Positions 20,025 through 25,576 of a DNA stretch of 37,017 nt are shown one piece after another. The DNA is from a virus. A program made the position numbers and the translations under genes. The stretch's first letter is position 1. The number at the start of each line of letters is the position of its first letter. The stretch covers positions 1 through 37,017 of the IMG/VR virus record IMGVR_UViG_3300041402_000238; one strand, 5' to 3'. Under the pieces are notes generated by a model that was not told where the DNA came from, made no database searches, and saw only the letters and a list, made by a program, of their open reading frames with translations.

Positions 20025-20233
20025 TATTCATCCATCCATTGAATTAATTTTCTTGTAACTGGTCTTTTACAGATAACCTGTATTTCTTCTGGCCTGCAAT
20101 CTTCTATCTGCTTACCGTTTACTATTGGTTTTGATAAGCTGCCATAATGATTACAATTAAAACAGATTTTAATGCTTCTCAAATTAAAATTAATTTCAGG
20201 GCATGGTATTAGCATATTATCTGGTAGATTCAT
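20024..20233 (-). CDS. Cysteine-rich small tail-region protein
   Basis: 69 aa with five Cys (CPEINF, ICFNCNHYG, EDCRP, VICKRP), spaced like a zinc ribbon. Overlaps both neighbours by 1-4 bp and so belongs to the tail operon. Small zinc or iron-sulfur proteins occur at this point in related phages, perhaps as assembly factors. Unknown. Confidence 0.5.
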   Translation of the reverse strand: MNLPDNMLIPCPEINFNLRSIKICFNCNHYGSLSKPIVNGKQIEDCRPEEIQVICKRPVTRKLIQWMDE

Positions 20234-22719
20234 ATTATTTTGTACCCTTCATTGCCATCAGCAAATAAGCCTGTATTTAAACAAATAAAGCCATATTTTT
20301 CTTTTTGTTCTTCCGTTGCAGATGAATAATCAGGCGTTCCATTTGGAGCTATAAAGAAATAACGGCCAGAAAATGAGCTTGTTAAACATTTTATCATTAA
20401 TTCATGACCCGCGTCCGATTCATCAATCTCTAATACTTGAAATTTTCTTGATTCATTTGCGCCTGTAGCGTCTTGAAATTGCCAAGAATTTAACTCAACA
20501 CGGCCAGCCATTTCTAATTTTCCATGATCTTTATTATCTATTTTAAATGTTACTATTTCTGGTGTATCATTAAATCTAGCCAATAATCTGCCGGTCAATT
20601 GAGCCGCATTTGCTGCGTCTTCAAACCACCGGCTGATAATCGTTTTTATAGAATTTCCATCATAACGGTCAGAGCTTGCTCGGCTTATATCTGATGAAAT
20701 TTGAACAGATTTAAAATTCTCTGTTTTATTATCCTCGCTATAATCTGATTTATTATAAAAAACCCTTATTTCCGTATATCGATTTTTTGATTTTCGATCG
20801 ATTTTTACACTGCCTTTTATAATATTAGCACCTTCTGTCAAGGTGTTAATTGTGACCCCACTTGGTTCAGGAGATAAGGCCTTTATTTTTACGGTTTGGC
20901 TTGTCGCATCCCACCAAATATCAAACATAAAAGATTCTGATAATTCAGCAATCACTTTTTCTATTGACTCAGGTTTTAATAAAATACCTTTCACATTAGC
21001 AGATGATAACCACAAATCTTTCTCAGCCTCCCATTCTGAGGTCGGAATATAAGAAGCTGGTAAACCAGAGCCATTTACCAACAATTCATTTAATACATCT
21101 ATTATATTATCACCATTCCATGATGCACAAATTTGCACGGTATTATAAGGTGAATGTGATTCTCTTTTTGTGCCCCATTGATTACGAACAAGTGTAAGCT
21201 CATCATCTGTTCTCGTATATAGCATAGCCTCTTTGCCTATTGAAATAGTACCAGATGATGGGTATTTGTCATTTGCCTCAATATTGTCCGTTAATTTTGC
21301 TTTAGTATCATAAACCTGAACTAGATCACCTAAAGAATGGGTTGTTGCTGTAGTACCAAATTGAGCGCGTTCAATTGTTAAATTATCGCCCAATCTATAA
21401 AATAATATATCTTCTGAATTAATCAAAATAATACCAGACTCTGGATATTCTGTATCTCCAATACCAGAAGGAGAAAGTACAGCTGTTGTTTGTGCGGCTG
21501 TTATATTTGCAGCAAGTGTTCCAGTATTTATTATAGGCTGTTCAATAATATCAGTTAATAACTTGCCCTCACTGGCTTCTGGATATTGTGATTTTCTACT
21601 ATGCGTTCTAATTAGCACATCTTTTGCCGTTATATCAATATGACCATTTGAAATGCCAGCTATATCTATAATGTCATATTCTTGAATTTCAAAATCATCA
21701 AATGAAAAAGAATCGCCTATATATCCATAATATATTTTTAATGTACGCCCTTCATAATATGGATTTCTTTTTAAGAATTTACCAAAAAATGTGCCTCGTT
21801 CTAAAGCATTATAACTGCGCTCAGATATATAAGGATCAATGCCTCTATCATGATGCGGGAAATCTTTTAATTTTGCTTTTAAAACGGCTCTTTTGCCAAG
21901 CCCTGAACCGGCAGTCGTGCTTGTTCCGGATTTCATTATGCTACCGCTGATAACAGGGAACATATTTTCACCGCGAGGAAGTGACGATCTTGGCTGACAA
22001 AATTTATATTCTTTTGTATCTTTCGTGTAATCGACCGCGCTATTACAAGTCGACCTGGTATTAAAACACTTTGAATCACCCGTTTCAGTTGCAGTACAAC
22101 CATCTGTTGCCGTTGTTGAAGTCGTTAATACATAACTGCCCGGGATAACATCCTCAACTATTTGAGCGCCATATATATAAGCTCCTTCTAATGATGTACC
22201 CAAATAAACCGTGCTTCCTGCTTTTGATAAAGCTATTTGGCAAACAGCAGAAACATCAGAGGTTGTCCATGTTGCAAAACATCTGAACCAACCGTCTCCC
22301 TCGTCTGTAATAGAAGCATTAGAACCACTTAATACGGTTCCAGCCAATAAATCGAAAATTGCGCCTGCATAATCAATAGTTTCTCTTATATGAATCTCTG
22401 ATCGTTCTCCAGCTTTTGCATAAATACTAAATGTAACCGATACGCCTGATGATGTTGTAGCTGCTTTATATGCCCTGTGAACACTTGTAAAAGCATTTTC
22501 TGTAAGCTTGTCAGCAGTCAATTCATCAAAAGGACTATTAATAATATCAGGCGTTACACTAGCAGCCGTTTTTATCCATGATGCATGGTCGAATTGCTCA
22601 GAATATGTCAGAAGATTAGTATAAGAAAGACCGGCAGCCAGCCTGCAATAATCCATCACCAATCCGATTATAGTAAATGGCTCTCTGCCTAATTTTATTT
22701 TTTCGCTATCGTAGCTCAC
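20230..22719 (-). CDS. Tail hub/tip protein with inserted lectin-like domain
   Basis: 829 aa. The C-terminal about 600 residues look like a central tail hub (VLKAKLKDFPHHDRGIDPYI, TFFGKFLKRNPYYEGRTLKI, LTDIIEQP, SFMFDIWWDATSQTVKIKAL). The N-terminus MDYCRLAAG (22-30) and a second cysteine segment (DSKCFNTRSTCNSAVDYTKD) resemble one continuous Cys motif of related hub proteins. Between them sits about 170 residues starting NLLTYSEQFDHASWIKTAAS and ending near YGAQIVEDVIPGSYVLTTST. That is the pattern of a phage carbohydrate-binding-like jelly-roll module, probably contacting host glycans. Confidence 0.72.
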   Translation of the reverse strand: MSYDSEKIKLGREPFTIIGLVMDYCRLAAGLSYTNLLTYSEQFDHASWIKTAASVTPDIINSPFDELTADKLTENAFTSVHRAYKAATTSSGVSVTFSIYAKAGERSEIHIRETIDYAGAIFDLLAGTVLSGSNASITDEGDGWFRCFATWTTSDVSAVCQIALSKAGSTVYLGTSLEGAYIYGAQIVEDVIPGSYVLTTSTTATDGCTATETGDSKCFNTRSTCNSAVDYTKDTKEYKFCQPRSSLPRGENMFPVISGSIMKSGTSTTAGSGLGKRAVLKAKLKDFPHHDRGIDPYISERSYNALERGTFFGKFLKRNPYYEGRTLKIYYGYIGDSFSFDDFEIQEYDIIDIAGISNGHIDITAKDVLIRTHSRKSQYPEASEGKLLTDIIEQPIINTGTLAANITAAQTTAVLSPSGIGDTEYPESGIILINSEDILFYRLGDNLTIERAQFGTTATTHSLGDLVQVYDTKAKLTDNIEANDKYPSSGTISIGKEAMLYTRTDDELTLVRNQWGTKRESHSPYNTVQICASWNGDNIIDVLNELLVNGSGLPASYIPTSEWEAEKDLWLSSANVKGILLKPESIEKVIAELSESFMFDIWWDATSQTVKIKALSPEPSGVTINTLTEGANIIKGSVKIDRKSKNRYTEIRVFYNKSDYSEDNKTENFKSVQISSDISRASSDRYDGNSIKTIISRWFEDAANAAQLTGRLLARFNDTPEIVTFKIDNKDHGKLEMAGRVELNSWQFQDATGANESRKFQVLEIDESDAGHELMIKCLTSSFSGRYFFIAPNGTPDYSSATEEQKEKYGFICLNTGLFADGNEGYKII

Positions 22720-23504
22720 AAAATACCTTCAAAAGATAATGATATATTCATGTGCAAGCTATCACCATAAACAGGCGATTTTATTTTTTTGGTTATCCAG
22801 GCCAAAACAACTTCACTTGAATGAGTGTCATTATCCCAGGCGAAAACAAAAGGCTTTGGAGTTTGCGCGTGATTAACAAAGGGTATCCAATTAGAGCGAA
22901 CCCATACAGGATCAAGAGTTTTCATTGAGAAAGAACCGATAATACCTTCATATAAAGCGGATCCACCAATAAAAGCACCTTTCTCAGATTGCGCGGTTTT
23001 GCTTTCAACCACTGGAACTAATGACGGCGGTGAAAATCCGGTATCAACATTTCGTGGAAATTTTAAAACTTCGCCAATTTGAACGCCACCAATAACAGGG
23101 ATAGTTGTTGAGCAATTAACTAATAAACGCCAATCGGCAGCATTTATGTCATCCCAAACAAAGAAAATAGTATTATTATCCGCTGGCAATACAATACTAG
23201 CAGCATCGTTCCACGTGGAACCACCATTAGTAGAATATTGCGGTTTAACGCTGGCACTATGGTCAGCTAAATCATGTCCCCATACAGCCATATAATTTGC
23301 TAATTGAGCCGAACCAAAAGAAACTCTTAACCAGCTGTCACCGGTTACTGTAGGCTTCCACCAATCGAAACCGAACCAATCATAAGCGTTTTCTTTTTCA
23401 TAGCCTGTGGCCTCACTAGAAGCAGTGACAGCGCCATTCTCAAAAAGATTTTTATAACCAATTCGAGGTACTCCAACTTCTGCATCTTCTAAAATAAATG
23501 CCAT
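22716..23504 (-). CDS. Distal tail-like protein with discoidin-like start
   Basis: 262 aa. The N-terminal 140 residues (AVTASSEATGYEKENAYDWF, DSWLRVSFGSAQLANYMAVW, then DWRLLVNCSTTIPVIGGVQI) resemble F5/8-type discoidin domains. The C-terminal part with MKTLDPVWVRSNWIPFV and KPFVFAWDNDTHSSEVVLAW fits distal-tail/tip proteins. It lies between tape measure and hub genes, where distal tail proteins are found. Confidence 0.6.
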   Translation of the reverse strand: MAFILEDAEVGVPRIGYKNLFENGAVTASSEATGYEKENAYDWFGFDWWKPTVTGDSWLRVSFGSAQLANYMAVWGHDLADHSASVKPQYSTNGGSTWNDAASIVLPADNNTIFFVWDDINAADWRLLVNCSTTIPVIGGVQIGEVLKFPRNVDTGFSPPSLVPVVESKTAQSEKGAFIGGSALYEGIIGSFSMKTLDPVWVRSNWIPFVNHAQTPKPFVFAWDNDTHSSEVVLAWITKKIKSPVYGDSLHMNISLSFEGIL

Positions 23505-25576
23505 TATGAAATCACCAAACTACCGACACCACCCATATCCTCTATAGTCTCCGCTAATTGTTCAGCAAATTGTCGCATATATGGAGTGTGCGCACCATCC
23601 TCTGGCAAAACAACCCGCAATTCTTGAACCAGTGGCGCACTTGTTTGTTCTGTGGGAAATATATCAGAATTATCAATTGCAGTAGATCCAGGAGGCGTAG
23701 CAGTTGCAGGGCTTCCACCCATTCCACCAGCGCCAGGAGCAGCGCCGCCACCGCCAAATGATTGCGATTTTATATTTTGAATTTGAACTGCTGTTGCAAT
23801 ACCGGCAGTAGCAGCAAAGGCAGCCCCGAGTATTGGCCCGCCTATTTTTGTACCTGCAGCATAAGAATTTAAAATTGATTCATAGCCTTTAATCATTGCA
23901 CCGGCAATTGCAGCAGCTTTACCAATCTTAAATAAATGACGACTTTTTGAATTCATCAAAGATGCGAGATTCCCAGCCATACCGATCATAATTGCATTTT
24001 TTGATTGCTCAATTTGCTTTTCTTTTTCGGCTTTTCTTCTGGCAATTTCTACCCGCTGATCAGCATAAGACTGTACTAAATTAACCCGCATTTCTTCCGC
24101 TTGCTGCTCGGTTAAAGCTTTGTTGTCCTCTGCGTCTTGAATAAGCATTAATTCTGAATTTTGTTTTTCAGCCAATAAAAGAAGCTCGTCAGCATACCGC
24201 TGCCTTAATTTGTCGAGTATTGCTTGATGCTCATAAGGATCAGCTGCAACAATTGGTGGTTCGGCCGCCGCTGTCTCGGCTGTTGTTGTGGCTCCGGCCT
24301 GTTTTGAAGCGTTTAGTTCGTCGGTCGCTGCTTTTTCAGCCCAAATTTGAGTTATTCTTTCATCATTTTTCTTTCGTTCTTCCTCTCGAAGTTCAAGAAT
24401 TGCACTCGCTTGCTCAAAATTAAGAGACATTACACTTGCGGCAACAGCAGCATAAGCACCCAATGCACTACCCATATCATTAAGAGCAATTATAAAAGAT
24501 TGCGCGACTTTCGCCACAACCCCGAAGCTTTGAGTAACCGCCCTTAATGCAGGGTCAAAGGTTTCACCCAATAAAATACCGGCAGATTCCCAGGCCGAAC
24601 CCATGCGCTTAATGTCACCATCAAGATTGTTTGTTCTGACTCTCGCCTGCTCTATAGCAACTGATGTGCCGGTCAATTTTTTTGTAAGAATATCCATTTT
24701 GTCAGCAGATTTAATTAACGCCTCACCCGATGCAAGATTTTCCTTACCAAATAATTTTGTAAGCTCAGTTACTTCAAGATTTCTATCTGCTAAATTTTTA
24801 AACGCCTGGCTTAATCCAACTATTGATGGGTTGATTGCGTCAATTCCTGCAGTTCTTAAATTTACGATAATATTTCTTAAATTCGTACCGGCCTGAGAGC
24901 CTTTGATTGCGACAGATGCGAGTTGTTGAATTGCTGCATTAGTTTCTTCAAATGATAGGCCAGCAGACGAGGCAACCGTACCGGCTTCTCTTAATGCGTT
25001 GGCAGTTGCGCCAATCTCTGACGCTCCATATTTAGAGCCAGCCGCCAATATGTTAATAAATTTTGCCGCTTCGTCCGCGTCAGCACTGAATTGATTTAAT
25101 GATGCACCTAACGCATTGGCAGCCGTTGGAAGGTCTAAGCCTGCCGCCTCTGCTAATGTCACAGCCTGTTTTGTTACCGCTGCCAGGGCCTCCGCGCTTT
25201 CTAATAAGTCAGGCTTTGCAGACGCAATTAATTTAAACGCTTGGCTTGCCTGGGTCGCGCTTAAAGTGGTGGCCTCTCCGATTAATTCAGATTGTCGCTT
25301 GAGATATTCTAAATCTTTACCAACTGCACCAGTAATTGCAGATAGTTCGCTTATCGAGGCGCTGAATTCTCGCCATACATTAAACGATGCCGATATTGAT
25401 TTATAAGCAATTGCAGTAGCCGCAGCCGCCACAGCCAGCGACTTGAAAGAACCACCAAGACTTTTATTTGCTTTTTCGGATTGTCCAGATTGAGTCTCTA
25501 ATTTATCAAGATCAGTAGTTGCTGTTTTAACGTCACCAGAATCAACCTCAATACCTAATGATGCAATATCAGTCAT
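23504..25576 (-). CDS. Tape measure protein
   Basis: 690 aa. The first 400 residues are alpha-helical with the TP901-type core (SELIGEATTLSATQASQAFK, LTKLFGKENLASGEALI). A hydrophobic patch lies at about 43-64, a charged coiled coil in the middle (EEERKKNDERITQIWAEKAA), and a hydrophobic segment near the end (about 565-600) before a glycine-rich stretch (GGGGAAPGAGGMGG). It sets tail length; by the usual rule of about 0.15 nm per residue this predicts a tail near 100 nm. It overlaps the chaperone extension by 8 bp. Confidence 0.88.
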   Translation of the reverse strand: MTDIASLGIEVDSGDVKTATTDLDKLETQSGQSEKANKSLGGSFKSLAVAAAATAIAYKSISASFNVWREFSASISELSAITGAVGKDLEYLKRQSELIGEATTLSATQASQAFKLIASAKPDLLESAEALAAVTKQAVTLAEAAGLDLPTAANALGASLNQFSADADEAAKFINILAAGSKYGASEIGATANALREAGTVASSAGLSFEETNAAIQQLASVAIKGSQAGTNLRNIIVNLRTAGIDAINPSIVGLSQAFKNLADRNLEVTELTKLFGKENLASGEALIKSADKMDILTKKLTGTSVAIEQARVRTNNLDGDIKRMGSAWESAGILLGETFDPALRAVTQSFGVVAKVAQSFIIALNDMGSALGAYAAVAASVMSLNFEQASAILELREEERKKNDERITQIWAEKAATDELNASKQAGATTTAETAAAEPPIVAADPYEHQAILDKLRQRYADELLLLAEKQNSELMLIQDAEDNKALTEQQAEEMRVNLVQSYADQRVEIARRKAEKEKQIEQSKNAIMIGMAGNLASLMNSKSRHLFKIGKAAAIAGAMIKGYESILNSYAAGTKIGGPILGAAFAATAGIATAVQIQNIKSQSFGGGGAAPGAGGMGGSPATATPPGSTAIDNSDIFPTEQTSAPLVQELRVVLPEDGAHTPYMRQFAEQLAETIEDMGGVGSLVIS

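Follow-up and report, generated by a model that had tools for sequence, protein, structure and literature searches.

A lectin-like domain inserted into the four-cysteine motif of a phage tail hub protein

That evolved Dit proteins and hubs can carry carbohydrate-binding domains is already known, as is the presence of such a domain within a four-cysteine domain of the kind described here. The RcGTA hub gp13 (Rcc01696) and the R4C hub contain a sugar-binding-type domain within a four-cysteine iron-sulfur domain (PMC7296036, PMC10276861), with horizontal transfer put forward by the authors of the R4C study (PMC10276861). This oligosaccharide-binding domain comprises about 80 residues and, by the published ranges, apparently lies between the second and third cysteines (C2-C3). 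The evolved Dit of skunaviruses is likewise a conserved tail-tip protein with a carbohydrate-binding domain, and its transfer restored adsorption/infection on EPS+ hosts (PMC10688798). The head fibres of RcGTA enable attachment to the host capsule (PMC7296036).

Four-cysteine metal sites are also described for lambda and JBD30. In lambda gpL, an iron-sulfur cluster is held by C173, C182, C205, and C212 in a domain on the outside of the tip, and the role of the cluster in gpL homologues is still to be characterised (PMC10721106). In the JBD30 upper baseplate protein, a putative metal ion is located at C147, C156, C238, and C245 (PMC11445458). In all known structures compared, C1 and C2 are separated by eight residues (x8).

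We analyzed an entire virus record of 37,017 bases (the window), which encodes on its minus strand an 829-aa tail hub protein with a gpJ-like core (20230..22719, GTG start). While the RcGTA and R4C domains apparently occupy the C2-C3 interval, the window hub carries a domain of 177 aa, resembling CBMs and head spikes, in the C1-C2 x8 loop of a protein fused to the gpJ-like core; the skunavirus domain is found in Dit, whereas that of the window lies in the cysteine motif of the hub. Compared with the known cases, the loop used is C1-C2, the domain is of another kind, the hub is a fused protein, and such insertions recur in many phages.

The assignment of the 829-aa open reading frame as a tail hub, made in an earlier note on this DNA, agreed with PHROG, Foldseek, and gene position. 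The protein matched a PHROG family of tail fiber proteins (E 5.7e-101), and its AlphaFold2 (AF2) model, in which most core residues had a pLDDT >90, matched tail-tip/hub chains of phage Chi, JBD30, and lambda (Foldseek; listed matches E 6e-9 to 1e-5) and, in the same E range, the MuSo2 tail protein, VgrG, and an RcGTA virion chain. These matches identify a hub-type (gpJ/T5 pb3) core fold. The gene order is also that of a hub, since the tape measure gene (23504-25576; Pfam PhageMin_Tail and PHROGs) is followed by a gene for a 262-aa protein in the distal-tail position (22716..23504, minus strand; phrog_11633) and then by the hub gene. The 262-aa protein had no Pfam match; read from its sequence, it may adopt a discoidin-like fold, and in phage GJ44 the neighbour bears the annotation discoidin domain.

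The four-cysteine motif and the inserted domain

In the window, the motif reads MDYCRLAAG-LSYTNLLTYSEQF...SYVLTTSTTATDG-CTATETGDSKCFNTRSTC and retains all four cysteines, i.e. Cys25 (22645..22647), Cys208 directly after the insert (22096..22098), Cys218 (22066..22068), and Cys225, which follows the third one after six residues (22045..22047; all on the minus strand), each of them invariant in 62 aligned hubs. We compared it with hub homologues drawn from viral contigs, the loci (L numbers) being picked by likeness to the window or by pattern. In close relatives without the insert, the joined motif consists of MDYCSLTAGVG followed directly by ACTATQTGDAKCHNTRATC. L003 and L026, the hubs of which are 76% (over 579 aligned residues) and 74% identical to that of the window when the insert is excluded, have the sequence MDYCSLTAGVGACTATxTGDxKCxNTRATC, a form shared by L004, and all three have the spacing C-x8-C-x9-C-x6-C. 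The earlier note had regarded MDYCRLAAG and DSKCFNTRSTC as one interrupted motif, and in these three hubs the two parts are indeed joined. The point of interruption was, however, to be refined: Cys208 (DGC) belongs to the motif, all four cysteines are retained, and the site is empty in relatives, so the insert lies between Cys1 and Cys2. Uninterrupted hubs mostly follow C-x8-C-x(6 to 11)-C-x6-C, a spacing seen in a 35-sequence alignment, and the motif was intact in 158 of the 192 distinct hub ORFs among those listed.

The two halves of the hub motif, C-x8-C and C-x6-C, have the same spacings as those of the lambda gpL and JBD30 sites, and this gpL-type arrangement was found across the hubs, with the x8 loop split by the insert in the window. 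Unlike the window, neither the gpL nor the JBD30 site has a domain in the x8 loop, and the extra sequence in JBD30 apparently lies between C2 and C3. No sequence homology with lambda gpL was detected when a profile of the motif and the following segment was compared with it (hhalign), a profile search of PDB sequences with the cysteine motif found nothing, and in Foldseek the hub model matched the lambda gpL chain weakly (E 0.019, prob 0.99). Judging by spacing and invariance, the motif is a probable gpL-type [4Fe-4S]/metal site. The earlier note mentioned neither this metal-site spacing nor the recurrence of insertions described below.

The inserted lectin/CBM-like beta-sandwich domain covers residues ~32-207 (22099..22626, minus strand), with NLLTYSEQFDHASW starting at hub residue 35, and it is absent from L003, L004, L026, and other hubs. 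The earlier note had placed it at residues ~33-203; the domain itself stands, whereas its end had to be moved to about residue 207. Matches of the 829-aa protein in phage records formed two separate sets, namely hub homologues aligned only from about residue 200 on and unrelated phages aligned only over residues ~19-197, and such disjoint sets are the signature of a domain insertion. When modeled in isolation, the domain folded with high confidence as an all-beta structure (AF2, pLDDT 96.8, pTM 0.91). In the full-length model, the core was resolved and most of the insert (residues 35-93, 105-133, and 155-203) fell below a pLDDT of 50; the alignment behind that model contained few insert-bearing rows, and the good model of the insert is that of the domain alone.

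Homology searches with the insert gave matches far above chance level. Single-sequence phmmer matched it to the RcGTA head-spike fibre Rcc01080 (E 1.1e-17), a protein of solved structure that carries a homologous domain, but on the capsid and not at the tail tip, and to E217 gp45 and Pa193 gp46 (~1e-5). A profile search gave a stronger match to Rcc01080/E217 gp45, its alignment including their close kin, and two PHROG matches were found (5.5e-22 and 7.8e-19). The closest folds were those of the Pa193 (TMq 0.83) and E217 (TMq 0.73) baseplate proteins, followed by CBM16, CBM4, CBM35, CBM61, and CBM22, with TM-scores of ~0.45-0.65 to CBM16/4/35/61 (Foldseek). Among predicted viral structures, the best matches were other tailed-phage proteins, several of which are annotated as concanavalin A-like lectins. 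Pfam returned no convincing family and no CBM match for the insert and 11 relatives of the module. The insert is a discrete domain that is homologous to the CBM-like module of the RcGTA head spike and E217 gp45 and has the same fold; the carbohydrate-binding-like character proposed in the earlier note is supported by the Rcc01080 match and by the CBM folds among its structural neighbours.

Insertions across hubs and the age of the gain

Among the 151 non-redundant hubs listed, 18 carried insertions of ≥70 aa in the motif, of several kinds; these counts apply to the hubs listed and are not population frequencies. Eight inserts were located in C1-C2 (window, L002, L030, L032, L033, L069, L093, and L122) and ten in C2-C3 (L005, L039, L048, L056, L076, L098, L113, L252, L275, and L326), with L005 counted in the latter group on account of the PCTAG that precedes its insert, although the automatic alignment had placed it in the first loop. 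The module type of the window, which was searched in viral contigs with a DNA pattern for PDGTxTADKL, was present in five of these hubs (window, L002, L032, L033, and L005). The only clear Pfam name among the other inserts was Laminin_G_3 in L076 (E 1.3e-10), and most of the others had no Pfam family match. Further inserts in the hubs were scattered or C-terminal. A full-text literature search for previous accounts of a hotspot of this type retrieved only R4C and a review. The four-cysteine motif is a recurrent insertion hotspot for different domains in these hubs, and so appears to be a site at which phage tail tips acquire additional parts for binding surfaces. It is quite conceivable, though we hold it at slightly less than an even chance, that the four-cysteine loops, C1-C2 included, serve phages as a general docking point for the exchange of surface-binding modules, the metal site acting as a stable staple that tolerates very different inserts. 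A motif that tolerates inserts in this way suggests a role for the gpL-type iron-sulfur cluster.

The age of the gain was assessed with a tree of the hub core from which the insert had been left out. In this tree, the window fell into a six-member clade (support 100/99) whose other five members have no insert, and grouping the window with L002 as one clade was rejected (p-AU 0.0021), as was a grouping of the window, L002, and L005 (p-AU 0.000123). Given the insert-free members and the rejected grouping with L002, the simplest reading is that the gain postdates the split from L003/L026. In the domain tree, constraining the hub inserts to a single origin was not worse. The GC3 of the insert (0.21) equals that of the core (0.23), and by composition the insert thus looks native. 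Its identity to the other modules found reaches 39% at most and is only 28% for that of L002, and no donor was found among these modules. The claim of a recent gain made in the earlier note thus holds in part: the gain is most simply recent relative to the closest relatives, with about 75% hub identity, and is not demonstrably very recent. A possible route is illustrated by L069 and L070, the hubs of which are 97% identical. The C1-C2 loop of L069 holds an insert of 78 aa, and the DNA differences between the two loci fall mainly within a short segment around the motif, the upstream sequence being identical, a pattern that suggests cassette replacement of the motif by recombination. By analogy with this other insert, the module of the window probably also arrived by recombination.

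Proposed function and alternative explanations

We consider it likely that the hub gained an independently folding CBM/lectin-like domain in the C1-C2 loop of a probable gpL-type site, and that this domain would bind cell-surface polysaccharide and so aid adsorption. The acquired part is a beta-sandwich of the kind present in the RcGTA head spike and Pseudomonas phage baseplates. The four-cysteine site would still form with the insert present because its two ends can presumably lie close together. Since the iron-sulfur domain of gpL faces outward on the lambda tip and the hubs of siphophages show threefold stoichiometry (PMC13243795), the insert would be expected to hang outside the tail tip in three copies. 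There, it may bind cell-surface polysaccharide and help adsorption as evolved Dit proteins do; fold, homology, and precedent make glycan binding and host contact likely.

CBM-like folds are also used as structural decorations, and the insert might accordingly be such a decoration, or a surface on which the phage docks its own fibres, instead of a host-binding domain. The occurrence of the same module in the baseplate proteins E217 gp45 and Pa193 gp46 would fit this explanation, and the E217 fibre does attach to gp45, but via a separate loop (residues 76-123; PMC10329688). We regard it as unlikely, as the hubs of most relatives lack the module, and inserts of such different kinds at one place hardly point to a single conserved docking partner. 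Somewhat less likely still is a near-neutral insertion into a tolerated loop that collects mobile domains of little or no function. Many unrelated inserts do share the same short segment, and L069 and L070 have near-identical hubs of which only one carries an insert, but the insert of the window has kept an intact reading frame, its fold, and most of the conserved positions of its family.

It is highly improbable that the domain was ancestral and has been lost from the insert-free relatives. The somewhat more distant L002 has a module of this kind in that very loop, and monophyly of the hub insert domains was not rejected, both of which would be compatible with such a history. However, the x8 motif is intact in five of the six members of the window's clade and in most of the hubs listed, both groupings with L002 were rejected in the hub-core tree, and repeated deletion is unlikely to have restored C-x8-C exactly. 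Hubs without the insert are numerous, and the segment is therefore not a constant part of the hub fold. The gain of a host-binding domain remains our preferred reading.

Further observations at the locus

A second cluster of insertions was present after Cys4 (around window residues 231-236) in 8 of the 151 hubs, with ~170-400 extra residues. At L052:578-1918 and L086:4614-5954, the lectin-like module of the window interrupts the phrog_11633 protein just upstream of the hub. The window hub also contains, at residues ~393-535 (21115-21543), an extra tandem copy of a module of about 70 aa of which L003 has one; the two window copies match a common L003 segment, each being about 50% identical to it. 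A megablast search of phage records with the region gave no match, and Rfam and tRNA scans of the window found nothing. Finally, an identical hub sequence occurs in L031 and L103, a viral contig and a contig of an Arcobacter MAG, the latter being a lead to the host group for part of the hub family.
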